Source of the DNA: a virus
Reading direction: 5' to 3' (one strand)
IMG/VR virus record: IMGVR_UViG_3300047562_002648
Coordinates: 1-20,381 of that record
DNA: 20,381 nt
Positions within the stretch are counted from its first letter, which is position 1; the number at the start of each line of letters is the position of its first letter. The notes under the pieces are model-generated. The model was not told the origin of the DNA. It did no database searches and was given only the letters and a program-made list of their open reading frames with translations. Made by a program: the position numbers and the translations under genes. Below are positions 1 to 7,969 of this stretch, one piece after another.

Positions 1-180
1 AACAAAGCCAATGTTAAGTTAGTATCAAATCCAAATGATCTGATTACTGAACTTGCTATGCTGAATGGTGATCTGGAAGAAGTTACATTATTTATTGATA
101 GAAAAGGTGAAAAGATGTTCGTGAATGTAAAGACAAACCACAAGCTTTCTTCCGATTATACGCCTGATGCAGGCAAGTGA
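1..180 (+). CDS. 3' end of an unidentified phage gene
   Basis: Frame 1 is open from the window edge to a TGA at 178-180, giving the last 59 residues of a protein whose start lies outside. The piece is mixed charged and hydrophobic (central segment LEEVTLFIDRKGEKMFVNVK) and ends in a polar tail, DYTPDAGK. It lacks cysteines, transmembrane stretches and any motif I recognise. In T4 the gene upstream of 33 is dsbA, but this segment does not resemble what I recall of DsbA. The stop codon overlaps a possible GTG start of the next gene (GTGA), suggesting translational coupling and membership of the replication / late-transcription operon. Function is unknown. Confidence 0.75.
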   Translation, partial: NKANVKLVSNPNDLITELAMLNGDLEEVTLFIDRKGEKMFVNVKTNHKLSSDYTPDAGK

Positions 181-182
181 TT

Positions 183-410
183 ATGCCAAATAAAGATGAG
201 ATTGCAAATTTTTCTTTGACGATTGAAACATTAGTTGCAGAAAAATCAATACCTTACATGGATGCAATTCTATTATATTGTGAGAATACTGGACTTGAAG
301 TTGAGGTCGCAGCTAAACTCATTTCTGGTGTACTGAAATCAAAAGTCAAGAATGAAGCAGAAGAACTTCATTTCCTACCAAAGTCAAACACAGCAAAACT
401 TCCTTTCTGA
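183..410 (+). CDS. 33: gp33-like late promoter transcription co-activator
   Basis: In T4, gp33 binds the RNA polymerase beta-flap and the sliding clamp, and with sigma factor gp55 activates late promoters. The assignment rests on pattern similarity to the core of T4 gp33 (IE.LV.E..I.Y.DA....EN....E..AKLI...L..KV..EA) and on position directly before gp59 and gp32, as in T4. The protein is 75 residues from ATG 183, or 77 from GTG 177, against 112 in T4; the missing part is the N-terminal extension. The C-terminus, NTAKLPF, is hydrophobic and occupies the place of the T4 clamp-binding tail, but lacks its acidic residue. GTG 177 overlaps the upstream TGA; ATG 183 gives a more gp33-like start. The TATAAATA promoters further along the window fit the presence of this factor. 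Confidence 0.72.
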   Translation: MPNKDEIANFSLTIETLVAEKSIPYMDAILLYCENTGLEVEVAAKLISGVLKSKVKNEAEELHFLPKSNTAKLPF

Positions 411-416
411 GGATAA

Positions 417-1016
417 ATGAAACTCAATGGTTATGAAACATACTGCACATATCTTGCCTTGAAGAGTCATTTTACGAGTGACAAGTATGATTATTTCAAG
501 TATAATGGTAAAGTCAATGCAAGCAAGGAATCGTTCTTGTCTCGCAAGGATAGGTTTCAATTTGAGAAGCTGGCAAGAAAGTGTGATGATGTAAAGACAC
601 ACATTGCGCTTTCTTTCCTAGCAGATAGGACATGGATTGGCGATATGTTGGATGATGAAGCTTTTGAGTCCACTCGGAAGCATAAGCGAAAAGTCCAATC
701 CATGTCCTACGATTTTAAGAATGAGATTGAGAAGTATGATGACATAAGATTGCTCTTCAAGAAAGAAGATGGAAGACCTGATGCTTATCCTATGATATTG
801 AATGAGTACATGCGAGGTGATATCTCACTGGAAACAATTATCATCCTCAATTCATTCACCGATTTCATTCCCAAGTTTGATGCTAAACTGAAAGACGATT
901 TTCTTTGGTCAAAGTTTAGCTTCAAAGCACGGAAGTTTGCTCCGTTTTTAATGCAAACACTTGATCAAAACAAACTCAAAACTATACTTATGGAGAAAGT
1001 GAAATGTCTAAGATGA
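417..1016 (+). CDS. 59: gp59 replicative helicase loader
   Basis: The protein is 199 residues against 217 in T4. In T4, gp59 binds fork DNA, gp32 and the gp41 helicase, and loads gp41 onto gp32-coated single strands. The N-terminal half follows T4 gp59 closely: a YxxYLxLKxHF..xKYDxxKYN segment at about residues 6-30, then SRKDRFQFEKLARK near 42-55, and ADRTWIGD near 69-76, which matches the T4 segment NQDAWIGD. The C-terminal half is helical and charged, with LNSFTDFI matching T4 LDSFLNII, and ends LMEKVKCLR. Shine-Dalgarno TGAGGA at 408-413 overlaps the gp33 stop. The stop overlaps the start of the next gene by 13 bp. Gene order 33-59-(small ORF)-32 supports the call. Confidence 0.92.
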   Translation: MKLNGYETYCTYLALKSHFTSDKYDYFKYNGKVNASKESFLSRKDRFQFEKLARKCDDVKTHIALSFLADRTWIGDMLDDEAFESTRKHKRKVQSMSYDFKNEIEKYDDIRLLFKKEDGRPDAYPMILNEYMRGDISLETIIILNSFTDFIPKFDAKLKDDFLWSKFSFKARKFAPFLMQTLDQNKLKTILMEKVKCLR

Positions 1017-1201
1017 TTTGCGTAACTGATCTTAATGATCACTCTGATATGATTTTCAATAGAGATTTTATTAATTCAATTCTACCTTACAAAGCAGAAG
1101 GAGATACTCATGCATACTATTCGGTTGTTCAATTGAAAGATAATTCTCGTCATTTTATTAGAGAAAGTGTACGTACAATCAACGATTTGTTGTGCATGTA
1201 A
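1004..1201 (+). CDS. FlbD-like small protein between gp59 and gp32
   Basis: The protein is 65 residues. Its start overlaps the end of gp59, with a good Shine-Dalgarno (GGAGAAAG, 992-999) inside gp59, so translational coupling is likely. The layout resembles FlbD (PF06289), a small bacterial protein encoded near flagellar genes: an opening MI.VT.LN, a middle FN.DFI.SI, and an ending VVQLKDNSRHFIRESVRTIN.LL. This corresponds to the FlbD pattern of MI.LT.LNG, N...I..IE, then I.L.nGk...V.EsV.ei. The phage protein has a longer middle (PYKAEGDTHAYY). FlbD similarity is seen by eye only, and its role here is unknown. Position suggests action alongside gp59/gp32, or modulation of a host process if it mimics a host protein. 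Confidence 0.7.
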   Translation: MSKMICVTDLNDHSDMIFNRDFINSILPYKAEGDTHAYYSVVQLKDNSRHFIRESVRTINDLLCM

Positions 1202-1210
1202 TATATATAA

Positions 1211-1239
1211 TTGACAGAGGGAGATTCCTCTGATAACAT
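1211..1239 (+). promoter_or_regulatory. sigma70-like promoter for gp32
   Basis: A perfect -35 TTGACA (1211-1216) is followed by a 17-bp spacer and a -10 of TAACAT (1234-1239), preceded by TG one base upstream (an extended -10, TGATAACAT). The expected start is near 1246, giving a leader of about 30 nt with GGAG at 1265-1268 before ATG 1276. The element lies in the only real gap of the replication module. It is a sequence match only. Confidence 0.5.
1215..1232 (+). promoter_or_regulatory. Inverted repeat in the gp32 promoter spacer, candidate operator or leader hairpin
   Basis: CAGAGG (1215-1220) and CCTCTG (1227-1232) form a perfect 6-bp inverted repeat around GAGATT. On DNA it fills the spacer between the -35 and -10 of the promoter above, where an operator could sit. 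On RNA read through from gp59 it would form a hairpin about 44 nt before the gp32 start, followed by an A-rich unpaired leader. That arrangement recalls the T4 gp32 autoregulatory leader, in which gp32 nucleates at a pseudoknot and spreads over the start site. I see no second stem completing a pseudoknot. Confidence 0.5.
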
Positions 1240-1275
1240 ATACAGATTATACAACGAAACATACGGAGAAAATAT

Positions 1276-2196
1276 ATGACAAACTTTGCTGCACTTAAGA
1301 AGTCCTCTTCTGACATCTCTCGCCTTACCAAAGAAATCGAAAAGATCAATAATCCAGAATCCAGCACTGAGTATGAAGAAGATACTCGTTTCTGGAAGCT
1401 CACTCGTGATAAGTCGGGTAATGGTTCTGCTATCATTCGTTTTCTTCCCGGTCCTGCTGTAGATGGTGATGATGCTCTTCCTTGGGTGCGTTACTTTGAT
1501 CATTGGTTCAAGGGCCCCACTGGTAAGTGGTATGTTGAAAACTCTCTGACGACCTTCGGTAAGAAGGATCCCGTGTCCGAGTTCAACTCTAATCTTTGGG
1601 GTGATTCCTCTATCAAGGAAGAGTCCTATCGTCCTCTTGAGCGTAAGCAGGCTCGTGAACAGAAGCGCAGACTTCATTATGTCTCTAACATCTATGTTGT
1701 ATCTGATCCTGCAAATCGTGAGAACGAAGGTAAGGTGTTTCTGTTCAAGTATGGTAAGAAGATTTTCGACAAGATCACTCTTTCCATGAAGCCTGAGTAT
1801 GAGGGTGATGAGGCTGTTGTACCTTTCGATCTTTGGAAGGGCGCTAATCTGAAGCTTCGCTGTCGTACAGTTGCAGGTTATCCCAACTATGATCAGTCTC
1901 TTTGGGACTCACCTTCTGCACTTAGCGGTGATGATGCTGAACTTGAGAGAATTTGGAAGTCTGAATACTCTCTGAAGGAGTTCATTGATCCCAAGAACTA
2001 CAAGTCTTATGATGACCTGAAGAAGCGTCTCAATGAAGTGCTTGCGGTGAACGACCAGATCACGGACTCTGTAACATCCACAAAGTCCAGTGATGTAGAA
2101 TCTTCAAAGCCGACATTCAATTCTGCCAAGAAGAGCTACAATGATGAAAGTCTTGATGAAGATGAAGACTACTTCAAGAACTTGATGGACGACTAA
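1276..2196 (+). CDS. 32: gp32 single-stranded DNA-binding protein, zinc site lost
   Basis: The protein is 306 residues (T4: 301). Gp32 coats single-stranded DNA cooperatively in replication, recombination and repair. Visible parts are a LAST-like basic/serine motif (KKSSS, residues 8-12) used in T4 for cooperativity, the core start GNGSAIIRFLPG (48-59), HWFKGPTGKWYVEN (76-89), NIYVVSDPANRENEGKVF (138-155), FKYGKKIFDKI (157-167), GYPNYD near 201-206, and an acidic tail DEDEDYFKNLMDD for partner binding. In T4 the zinc is held by one histidine and three cysteines. Here the histidine position remains (H76) but residues 90-110 carry no cysteine, and the only cysteine is C196, elsewhere in the core. 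Arginine codons are mostly CGT/CGC, unlike the AGA-rich genes around it, fitting very high expression. GGAG at 1265-1268 supports the start. Confidence 0.95.
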   Translation: MTNFAALKKSSSDISRLTKEIEKINNPESSTEYEEDTRFWKLTRDKSGNGSAIIRFLPGPAVDGDDALPWVRYFDHWFKGPTGKWYVENSLTTFGKKDPVSEFNSNLWGDSSIKEESYRPLERKQAREQKRRLHYVSNIYVVSDPANRENEGKVFLFKYGKKIFDKITLSMKPEYEGDEAVVPFDLWKGANLKLRCRTVAGYPNYDQSLWDSPSALSGDDAELERIWKSEYSLKEFIDPKNYKSYDDLKKRLNEVLAVNDQITDSVTSTKSSDVESSKPTFNSAKKSYNDESLDEDEDYFKNLMDD

Positions 2197-2224: not shown

Positions 2225-2250
2225 GGGAGAGCTTCGGCTCTCCCTTTTTT
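2225..2250 (+). terminator. Rho-independent terminator after gp32
   Basis: An 8-bp perfect stem, GGGAGAGC (2225-2232) with GCTCTCCC (2237-2244), closes a TTCG tetraloop in the stable C(UUCG)G context, followed by six T. It lies 28 bp past the gp32 stop. The T run overlaps the stop of the convergent gene (TAA complement at 2249-2251). On the minus strand the hairpin has no following T run, so it should be less efficient for that operon. Confidence 0.93.
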
Positions 2251-6955: not shown

Positions 6956-7459
6956 TTATCTCTTTACTACAAAGAACTCGACTGGTAACTCTATTGCTCT
7001 GTCCCATTCTGTAGCAGGCACTTCAATAAAAGGACTTCTGACATGTGTGAATAGATATCTCTTGATACAAGGACGCATCTGATTTGCAATTCTCTTGGTA
7101 CCAGATAAAAGCTCATATGAAAGCTTAAGCTTGGATCTTTCTGTCAGATTGCTGCTTGATCTGAATTTCATGAGCTTACCAAGCAACTCAGCACGTTCTG
7201 CTTGATTTAGATAGTGTAAGTTCAAGCCTAGGAATCCATCTGAGTATCTCTCAATGGGAAATACCAGAGGAAATCTATCATAGACTGGAAGAGTATCTTT
7301 GTGCTTTGGATCATACCAATAAAAGTACATCTTACCGATAACCGTCGAGCTTCGGCTTCGATCTACGGATCCAATGATTTTTCTGCGATATCCTACGGCA
7401 GTTTTGACTTTGCCAGAGAACCAGTCGCTAAGTTCTTTTTTGTTGTATTTGTTTGCCAT
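6956..7459 (-). CDS. Conserved tail-associated protein of unknown function
   Basis: The protein is 167 residues and I cannot name it. It has a basic N-terminus (KVKTAVGYRRKIIGSVDRSRSSTV, residues 17-40 in parts), a tyrosine/proline-rich core GKMYFYWYDPK (42-52) and LPVYDRFPLVFPI (57-69), GFLGLNLHYL (75-84), then a helical RAELLGKLMKFR segment and a C-terminal beta region ending FFVVKR. A similar core occurs, as I recall, in cyanophage-type T4 relatives, where it is not well characterised. It lies between gp4 and the tube-fold gene, roughly where T4 has gene 53, but gp53 is elsewhere here (9011). GGAAT lies just before the ATG. A structural or assembly role in the tail or head-tail junction is inferred from context only. 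Confidence 0.8.
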   Translation of the reverse strand: MANKYNKKELSDWFSGKVKTAVGYRRKIIGSVDRSRSSTVIGKMYFYWYDPKHKDTLPVYDRFPLVFPIERYSDGFLGLNLHYLNQAERAELLGKLMKFRSSSNLTERSKLKLSYELLSGTKRIANQMRPCIKRYLFTHVRSPFIEVPATEWDRAIELPVEFFVVKR

Positions 7460-7476: not shown

Positions 7477-7505
7477 TTGACAGTCTATTGACAGAGCATT
7501 AACAT
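7477..7505 (+). promoter_or_regulatory. Plus-strand promoter-like element antisense to the minus operon
   Basis: TTGACA (7477-7482), 17 bp, then TAACAT (7500-7505) repeats exactly the hexamers and spacing of the gp32 promoter candidate. A second TTGACA begins at 7488. The element lies in the 69-bp gap between two minus-strand genes and points right, into antisense gp4 and towards gp48. No TG extension is present. It could be an early or antisense promoter, or chance. Confidence 0.3.
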
Positions 7506-7528: not shown

Positions 7529-7969
7529 TTACTTTATTCCTAATTCAGTTTCAGTCATGATTATGAATTCCCATCCTCTGTCGGCACAGTATTCCTCTGC
7601 TGACTGCCATTTAGCCTGATTTTTACCCCATGTAGTCACCTCTGTAATGTACTGCTTGGTGATACGCTTTCTCTTTGCAGGTTCTCTGGTTTCCTTCTTG
7701 GGTTTAATCTCTACAATCATTTCTTTCAGAGTACCATCTGGATTCTTTGCCTTGACATAAAAGTCAGGAAAGTATCTGTGATATCTGTTATCCAATGGTG
7801 ACTTGTATGGTATCTGAATTTCTTCAGACGACCACTCAAGAACAGCAGCATTCTCATCTAAATATTTCATGAATTTGCGTTCCCATAACGAACGAAAAAT
7901 GATGTTCGTCGGGTCACCTCTGTATTTTTTTGGATTCTGTGGAGTGAATCTACCTTTGTATGTTTTCAT
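7529..7969 (-). CDS. 4: gp4-like head completion protein, PD-(D/E)XK nuclease fold
   Basis: The protein is 146 residues (T4 gp4: 150). In T4, gp4 (also called gp50/65) is needed to complete the DNA-filled head before tail joining. The sequence shows a TnsA-like nuclease layout: basic RFTPQNPKKYRGDP (7-20), SLWERKFMKYLDEN (27-40) with E30, a WSSEEIQIPY strand (46-55), HRYFPDF (64-70) with D69, and MIVEIKPKK (84-92) with E87 and K89, the E-x-K motif. The C-terminal half is helical, with a final strand GWEFIIMTE. The family's conserved acidic residues are present, so nuclease activity is possible. It is the first gene of the minus operon, and its ATG overlaps the plus-strand late promoter; a convincing Shine-Dalgarno is not seen. 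Confidence 0.88.
   Translation of the reverse strand: MKTYKGRFTPQNPKKYRGDPTNIIFRSLWERKFMKYLDENAAVLEWSSEEIQIPYKSPLDNRYHRYFPDFYVKAKNPDGTLKEMIVEIKPKKETREPAKRKRITKQYITEVTTWGKNQAKWQSAEEYCADRGWEFIIMTETELGIK

Follow-up and report, generated by a model that had tools for sequence, protein, structure and literature searches.

The question raised by this locus is what a perfect palindrome does inside the spacer of a promoter ahead of gene 32, which encodes the single-strand DNA-binding protein gp32, in the virus record IMGVR_UViG_3300047562_002648 (positions 1 to 20,381; this whole stretch of 20,381 nucleotides is called the window). A preliminary description had reported a TTGACA-17-TAACAT promoter with an extended TG together with a CAGAGG-N6-CCTCTG repeat, and both are present, at 1211-1239 and 1215-1232, with GAGATT at the centre of the palindrome. 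It had also placed the repeat exactly between the two hexamers and spoken of read-through from gp59; in fact the left arm overlaps the last two bases (CA) of the -35 hexamer, and the gene next to the promoter is a 65-aa open reading frame. Gene identities (gp33-like, gp59 and gp32) were assigned via PHROGs, and the gp33-like gene implies that the phage encodes late transcription machinery. No cultured phage was found with a gp32 more than 60% identical to that of the window. The features concerned are listed here.

177-410, plus strand: gp33-like late-promoter coactivator (phrog_254, E 1.6e-18)
417-1016, plus strand: gp59, DNA helicase loader (phrog_269, E 2e-47)
1004-1201, plus strand: 65-aa open reading frame between gp59 and gp32, missing here in relatives L002, L003 and L006
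1202-1209, plus strand: late-promoter-like box TATATATA, one mismatch to the T4 box TATAAATA, with a predicted late +1 at about 1213-1216
1211-1216, plus strand: -35 hexamer TTGACA of a sigma70-type promoter, present in nearly all gp32 loci of the clade
1215-1220, plus strand: left arm of the hairpin, CAGAGG, supported by covariation and RNA folding
1221-1226, plus strand: hairpin loop GAGAUU, replaced in relatives by C(UUCG)G and other tetraloops
1227-1232, plus strand: right arm of the hairpin, CCTCTG, supported by covariation, its last TG being the extended -10 TG
1231-1232, plus strand: extended -10 TG, shared with the end of the right arm
1234-1239, plus strand: -10 hexamer TAACAT, with an early +1 predicted at about 1245-1246 from the usual spacing
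1240-1275, plus strand: unstructured leader with AUAC units at 1240, 1249 and 1261, around the Shine-Dalgarno GGAG (1265-1268)
1276-2196, plus strand: gp32, single-strand DNA-binding protein (phrog_224, E 1.4e-101)
2225-2244, plus strand: canonical terminator after gp32, GGGAGAGCUUCGGCUCUCCC followed by TTTTTT

Taken alone, the promoter and the palindrome are weak evidence. Within the window, 61 promoter-like sites were counted where chance predicts 70.6, together with 53 perfect 6-bp inverted repeats; among the latter, arms with at least four G/C occur at three places only, one of them the gp32 terminator. A perfect 6-bp repeat in the promoter register arises in 0.05% of spacer shuffles (probability 0.0005), and RNA folding of the element predicts a single hairpin and nothing more, at -9.5 kcal/mol (z = -2.9); a search of Rfam gave no relevant match at the element. 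A second TTGACA-17-TAACAT occurs in the window at 7477-7505 on the plus strand, between two minus-strand genes and antisense to a head-closure gene, and carries no palindrome. It is the comparison with relatives that is decisive.

This comparison drew on scans of a viral contig collection, three with gp32 proteins or an alignment and two with DNA patterns, which together with a few phage records yielded 229 gp32 loci with readable upstream DNA. The nearest relatives (L002, L003 and L006) carry an identical element even though the gene preceding it differs, while in L004 (TTGACGGAACGAGATTGTTCTGTCAACAT) the loop is unchanged and the stem is altered. Farther away, the stem becomes CACAGG, CATACC, CAGAAC, CAGGAC, CAGGGG, CGGAAC, ACATGAA and others, and the GAGAUU loop alternates with C(UUCG)G, C(UUAG)G, C(CCUG)G and A(GCAA)U. 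The exact sequence TTGACANAGGGAGATTCCTNTG, the GAGATT form, lies directly before gp32 in 36 of its 37 occurrences in the collection, the remaining one falling at a contig end, and the element is thus specific to gp32. One contig, L238, has the same 22-mer and a similar promoter before another gene and was set aside, as were other non-gp32 matches with UUCG loops, most of which lead into a run of T and resemble unrelated terminators. Shortly before gp32, relatives L055 (599-879), L111 (109-388), L150 and L044 have permuted alphaproteobacterial-type tmRNA genes, hinting at alphaproteobacterial hosts.

Counting from the first T of TTGACA as 1, stem position i pairs with 27-i (register 27). TTGACA and TGn by themselves already supply the outer pairs A4-T23, C5-G22 and A6-T21, and the informative pairs are therefore 7-20 to 10-17. 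Among the 57 distinct gp32 promoters of the two clades surrounding the window, 51 share one fixed register (27); the other six rows, counted on the gp32 tree, are two with a shifted register and four without any. In the 51 register-27 sequences, whose rows were chosen for pairing, 200 of the 204 cells of the inner four pairs are paired, compared with a mean of 129 and a maximum of 152 in 5000 arm permutations, and parsimony on the gp32 tree places about 39 double changes in these pairs. No such inner pairing was seen in the 47 other gp32 promoters. An independent count over 40 distinct sequences gave 98.3% of cells paired versus 75.7% after shuffling, with a covariation score of 0.658 versus 0.224; the score is at most 0.19 when the register is slid, collapsing at a slide of a single base. 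Imperfect inner pairs on the mRNA strand comprise 19 G.U, no A.C and four others, an excess of G.U that could come in part from C-to-T mutation bias on the non-template strand. Conservation of the stem in relatives, proposed earlier as a check on the element, was therefore found strongly. Since the arms vary around a kept centre, tetraloops are exchanged and wobble is confined to the mRNA strand, the palindrome is best read as encoding a sense-strand RNA hairpin, not a DNA operator; of the two competing readings offered at the outset, it is the RNA hairpin that the compensatory stem changes support.

The late box at 1202-1209 bears on which transcripts would carry this hairpin. TATATATA is a non-canonical variant, found also before the gene at 7969 on the minus strand of the window and in relatives G004 and G005, and its place is taken by CTATATA in the nearest relatives L002/L006 and L004. 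Of the palindromic gp32 promoters, 71 distinct ones had sufficient DNA upstream for boxes to be sought within 16 nt before the -35 hexamer; in 50 of these, a T4-type late box (CTAWATA/TATAAATA) ends 1-4 nt before TTGACA, as against 1.5% in shuffles, and the other 21 have no canonical box. The late motif of phage Aeh1 has been described as CTAAATA, with C at -12 (PMC1524935), and that of cyanophages as NATAAATA (PMC2984593). In two large relatives, CTAAATA upstream of open reading frames is strongly strand-biased (19 versus 2 and 15 versus 2), and in both it precedes the gene for the head scaffold protein, a late gene. With the late start taken as 6 nt after the box, late RNA is predicted to begin at T2 to C5, which would leave 0-3 unpaired nucleotides ahead of the stem.

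The association of folding with the late box extends beyond the palindromic promoters. Taken over every gp32 locus, the folding profile reaches its maximum about 4 nt downstream of the late box, and loci that lack the spacer palindrome also show a peak of folding energy just after it; in S-SSM5, P-TIM40, Mosig and the L007 group the box lies lower down and a clear hairpin follows directly, the L007 group having its sigma70 promoter upstream of this hairpin at the late start. At other late starts, flush hairpins with 6-bp stems are not generally enriched (8/89 versus 195/2420), so that a general rule of 5' protection is not established, although very stable folds, of -8 kcal/mol or lower, occur at these starts more often (10% versus 2%). 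As a separate observation, late boxes stand exactly 5 nt before an ATG at 7459 (minus strand), 7969 (minus strand) and 13078 of the window and also in G001, G004 and G005; 11 such sites were counted and none for the reverse-complement control. With that spacing, late transcription would be predicted to begin on the A of the ATG itself, which makes these sites candidate leaderless late mRNAs.

The account that we consider probable is that the hairpin forms the 5' end of a late gp32 mRNA with a T4-like leader layout, in which it replaces the pseudoknot. According to this model, gp32 would have two stacked promoters, one T4-type late (box at about 1202-1209, predicted start 1213-1216) and one sigma70-type (1211-1239, start about 1246). 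Since the sequence of the hairpin lies within the sigma70 promoter, only late transcripts and any read-through would carry it, flush or nearly flush at the 5' end in the late ones, whereas early transcripts would start after it and be devoid of it. This fits the earlier suggestion that mRNA started at the promoter does not include the hairpin and that both modes could operate at different times; gp59 read-through alone, named then as the origin of the hairpin-bearing RNA, is a less likely source than the late promoter directly before the -35 hexamer. It has been thought that overlapping early and late promoters stand in for middle transcription in RB49 and S-PM2 (PMC2984593).

Regarding function, we infer that the 5' hairpin would protect late gp32 mRNA from 5'-end-dependent decay and that, together with the AUAC repeats, it would form a T4-like control region in the gp32 leader. 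That stem and loop sequences change freely favours a structural function at the 5' end, for example decay protection, and the gp32-specific repeats and the T4 layout favour a part in gp32 feedback; both may apply. More tentatively, and with somewhat less than even confidence, promoter choice might act as an RNA switch in a broad group of uncultured T4-like phages, by which early gp32 mRNA would escape control and late mRNA, with its 5' hairpin, would come under gp32 feedback and/or have altered stability.

Downstream of the hairpin, the leader up to the AUG is unstructured and carries repeated AUAC units that extend across the ribosome-binding site. Window RNA 1246-1285 has a minimum free energy of 0, and the leaders of the clade, from -10 to AUG, contain 136 AUAC units versus 18 expected, 65 of 93 spacings being 10-11 nt; leader self-similarity peaks at lags 10 and 11 (z = 24 and 27) and is weaker, yet present, in other groups and in cyanophages. 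When all open reading frames of two relatives were taken together, repeats at lag 10-11 were not seen, and paired AUAC units upstream of open reading frames in five genomes were found at gp32 and in one other case; the repeats are gp32-specific. By eye, P-SSM2 and its relatives L016-L018 have AATCC-type repeats about 10 nt apart before the gp32 start codon; this suggests that groups differ in their repeat unit and share the layout. Two other leader elements were observed. In L111, L120, L123, L150 and L166, about 60 nt of additional structured leader, AGAGTATGG...CCATACTCT, separate the promoter of gp32 from its AUG; this segment has folding energies of -19 to -26 kcal/mol and an inner hairpin whose variation is consistent with pairing. 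An Rfam search with L120 gave no match for this longer leader. In other gp32 leaders of relatives (e.g., L053, L082, L139 and L217), TGTGGATAA/TGTGGACAA, the reverse complement of a DnaA box, follows just after a -10-like TATTATG; it occurs in 65 of 150 distinct leaders, on the sense strand only, with 1.3 expected in shuffles, and is not in the window.

In T4, the gp32 operator combines a folded element on the 5' side with UUAAA repeats that cover the ribosome-binding site (PMC535899). Its structure starts roughly 67 nt upstream of the AUG, and the T4 gene 32 mRNA, which is processed at -71, has unusual stability (PMC3014915). The operator of T4, T2 and RB69 belongs to the same gene, and its distance to the AUG is similar in the window, where the hairpin spans -61 to -44. 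Both leaders are unstructured over the ribosome-binding site, with UUAAA repeats in T4 and AUAC units at 10-11 nt here, whereas the folded part is a pseudoknot in T4 and a simple hairpin here; in addition, the T4 5' end arises from RNase E cleavage at -71, while the hairpin here lies inside a sigma70 promoter, at a predicted late start. Of the T4 parallel drawn in the preliminary description, what is retained is therefore the layout, with a folded 5' part ahead of unstructured repeats that cross the ribosome-binding site, and not the pseudoknot, none having been seen. A pseudoknot between loop and leader was rejected: no conserved partner is visible by eye, and the exchange to UUCG loops leaves no conserved loop partner.

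This layout invites the proposal that the hairpin is itself a nucleation site, at which gp32 would bind and from which it would spread along the AUAC repeats until the ribosome-binding site is covered, in the manner of the T4 pseudoknot. The gp32 specificity of the element and of the 10-11 nt repeats, which reach the start codon, and the matching position and layout favour it, and it is compatible with the 5'-end explanation rather than exclusive of it. We nevertheless regard it as possible but doubtful, as loop and stem sequences are freely exchangeable, the distance from -35 to AUG varies from 61 to 145 nt among the relatives, transcripts from the sigma70 promoter would be devoid of the site and no partner of the loop for a pseudoknot was seen by eye. 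A RegB-type GGAG in the loop was also considered and discarded, since it is not conserved (L004, L036 and the UUCG forms).

Less likely still is that the hairpin marks the 3' end of the gp33-gp59 transcript, as a weak terminator or a block to 3'-exonucleases that would also stop read-through from entering the gp32 promoter. The hairpin follows the upstream stop codon within about 15 nt in the window and L002/L006, and stems capped by C(UUCG)G are typically found between cistrons and in terminators, that of gp32 itself among them. Yet the 1215 hairpin has no U-tract like that of the gp32 terminator, its stem running into the -10 sequence, and this proposal leaves unexplained both the late box close upstream and the L007 group, with its hairpin at the late start and its sigma70 promoter upstream. 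An ordinary intrinsic terminator was rejected on similar grounds: the stem is followed by ATAACATATAC, without a U-tract, and the element is missing from the list of terminators of the window.

A double-stranded DNA operator, bound by a dimeric regulator of the sigma70 promoter, had been put forward initially and is now very improbable. Its appeal lies in the symmetry of the palindrome and its fixed register between -35 and -10 in nearly all clade relatives, but this register follows from the fact that TTGACA and TGn share ACA and TGT with the stem. The arms vary freely (CAGAGG, CACAGG, CGGAAC, CATACC, ACATGAA) and the centre GAGATT is often kept, the reverse of what an operator would show, and the tetraloop substitutions and wobble-type mismatches of the G.U kind only also argue against it. 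That the element works as single-stranded DNA (a cruciform or folded strand aiding promoter opening or replication, as in the N4 hairpin promoters) is the least credible proposal, for although single-stranded DNA would show the same sense-strand pairing and tolerate G.T in the same way, the C(UUCG)G tetraloop is classically one of RNA, the promoter is made of ordinary double-stranded sigma70 elements, and the link to the late start and the occurrence at gp32 only would need extra assumptions.

The hairpin at the 5' end of late gp32 mRNA, as we favour it, has partial counterparts elsewhere. Tuerk et al. reportedly described C(UUCG)G intercistronic hairpins of T4 in 1988; these CUUCGG-capped stems between phage genes resemble those of some members here, but UUCG is found in some only and GAGAUU in many, and the position here is tied to a promoter. 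Stem-loops that stabilize E. coli mRNAs at the 5' terminus are listed in PMC3997798. The ompA and papA mRNAs of E. coli have a stable, sequence-independent stem-loop near the 5' end, like the predicted late gp32 5' end, while the gp32 hairpin differs in overlapping promoter elements and in belonging to one transcript class only, its 5' position being predicted. The overlapping promoters of RB49 and cyanophages likewise stack an early sigma70-type promoter and a T4-type late box on a replication gene; here, by contrast, the overlap contains a covarying RNA hairpin, and promoter choice would thereby alter the mRNA 5' end. The element is neither a T4-type pseudoknot operator nor an intrinsic terminator, nor, given that the arms are not conserved, a classical DNA operator. 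What is new is a covarying mRNA hairpin nested in an early promoter, whose presence in the transcript would be set by promoter choice.

Autocontrol by gp32 has been documented for T4 and RB69 and not for diverse T4-like phages, RB49 being without the pseudoknot (PMC3014915, PMC535899). The comparison now argues strongly that the plan of this leader is kept by many environmental T4-like phages with other parts, a hairpin in place of the pseudoknot and AUAC (by eye AATCC in P-SSM2) in place of UUAAA, and the question of the leader plan becomes testable with short synthetic leaders. In these phages one and the same stretch of DNA would serve as promoter spacer and as RNA structure, and the choice of promoter would set whether the RNA carries that structure.
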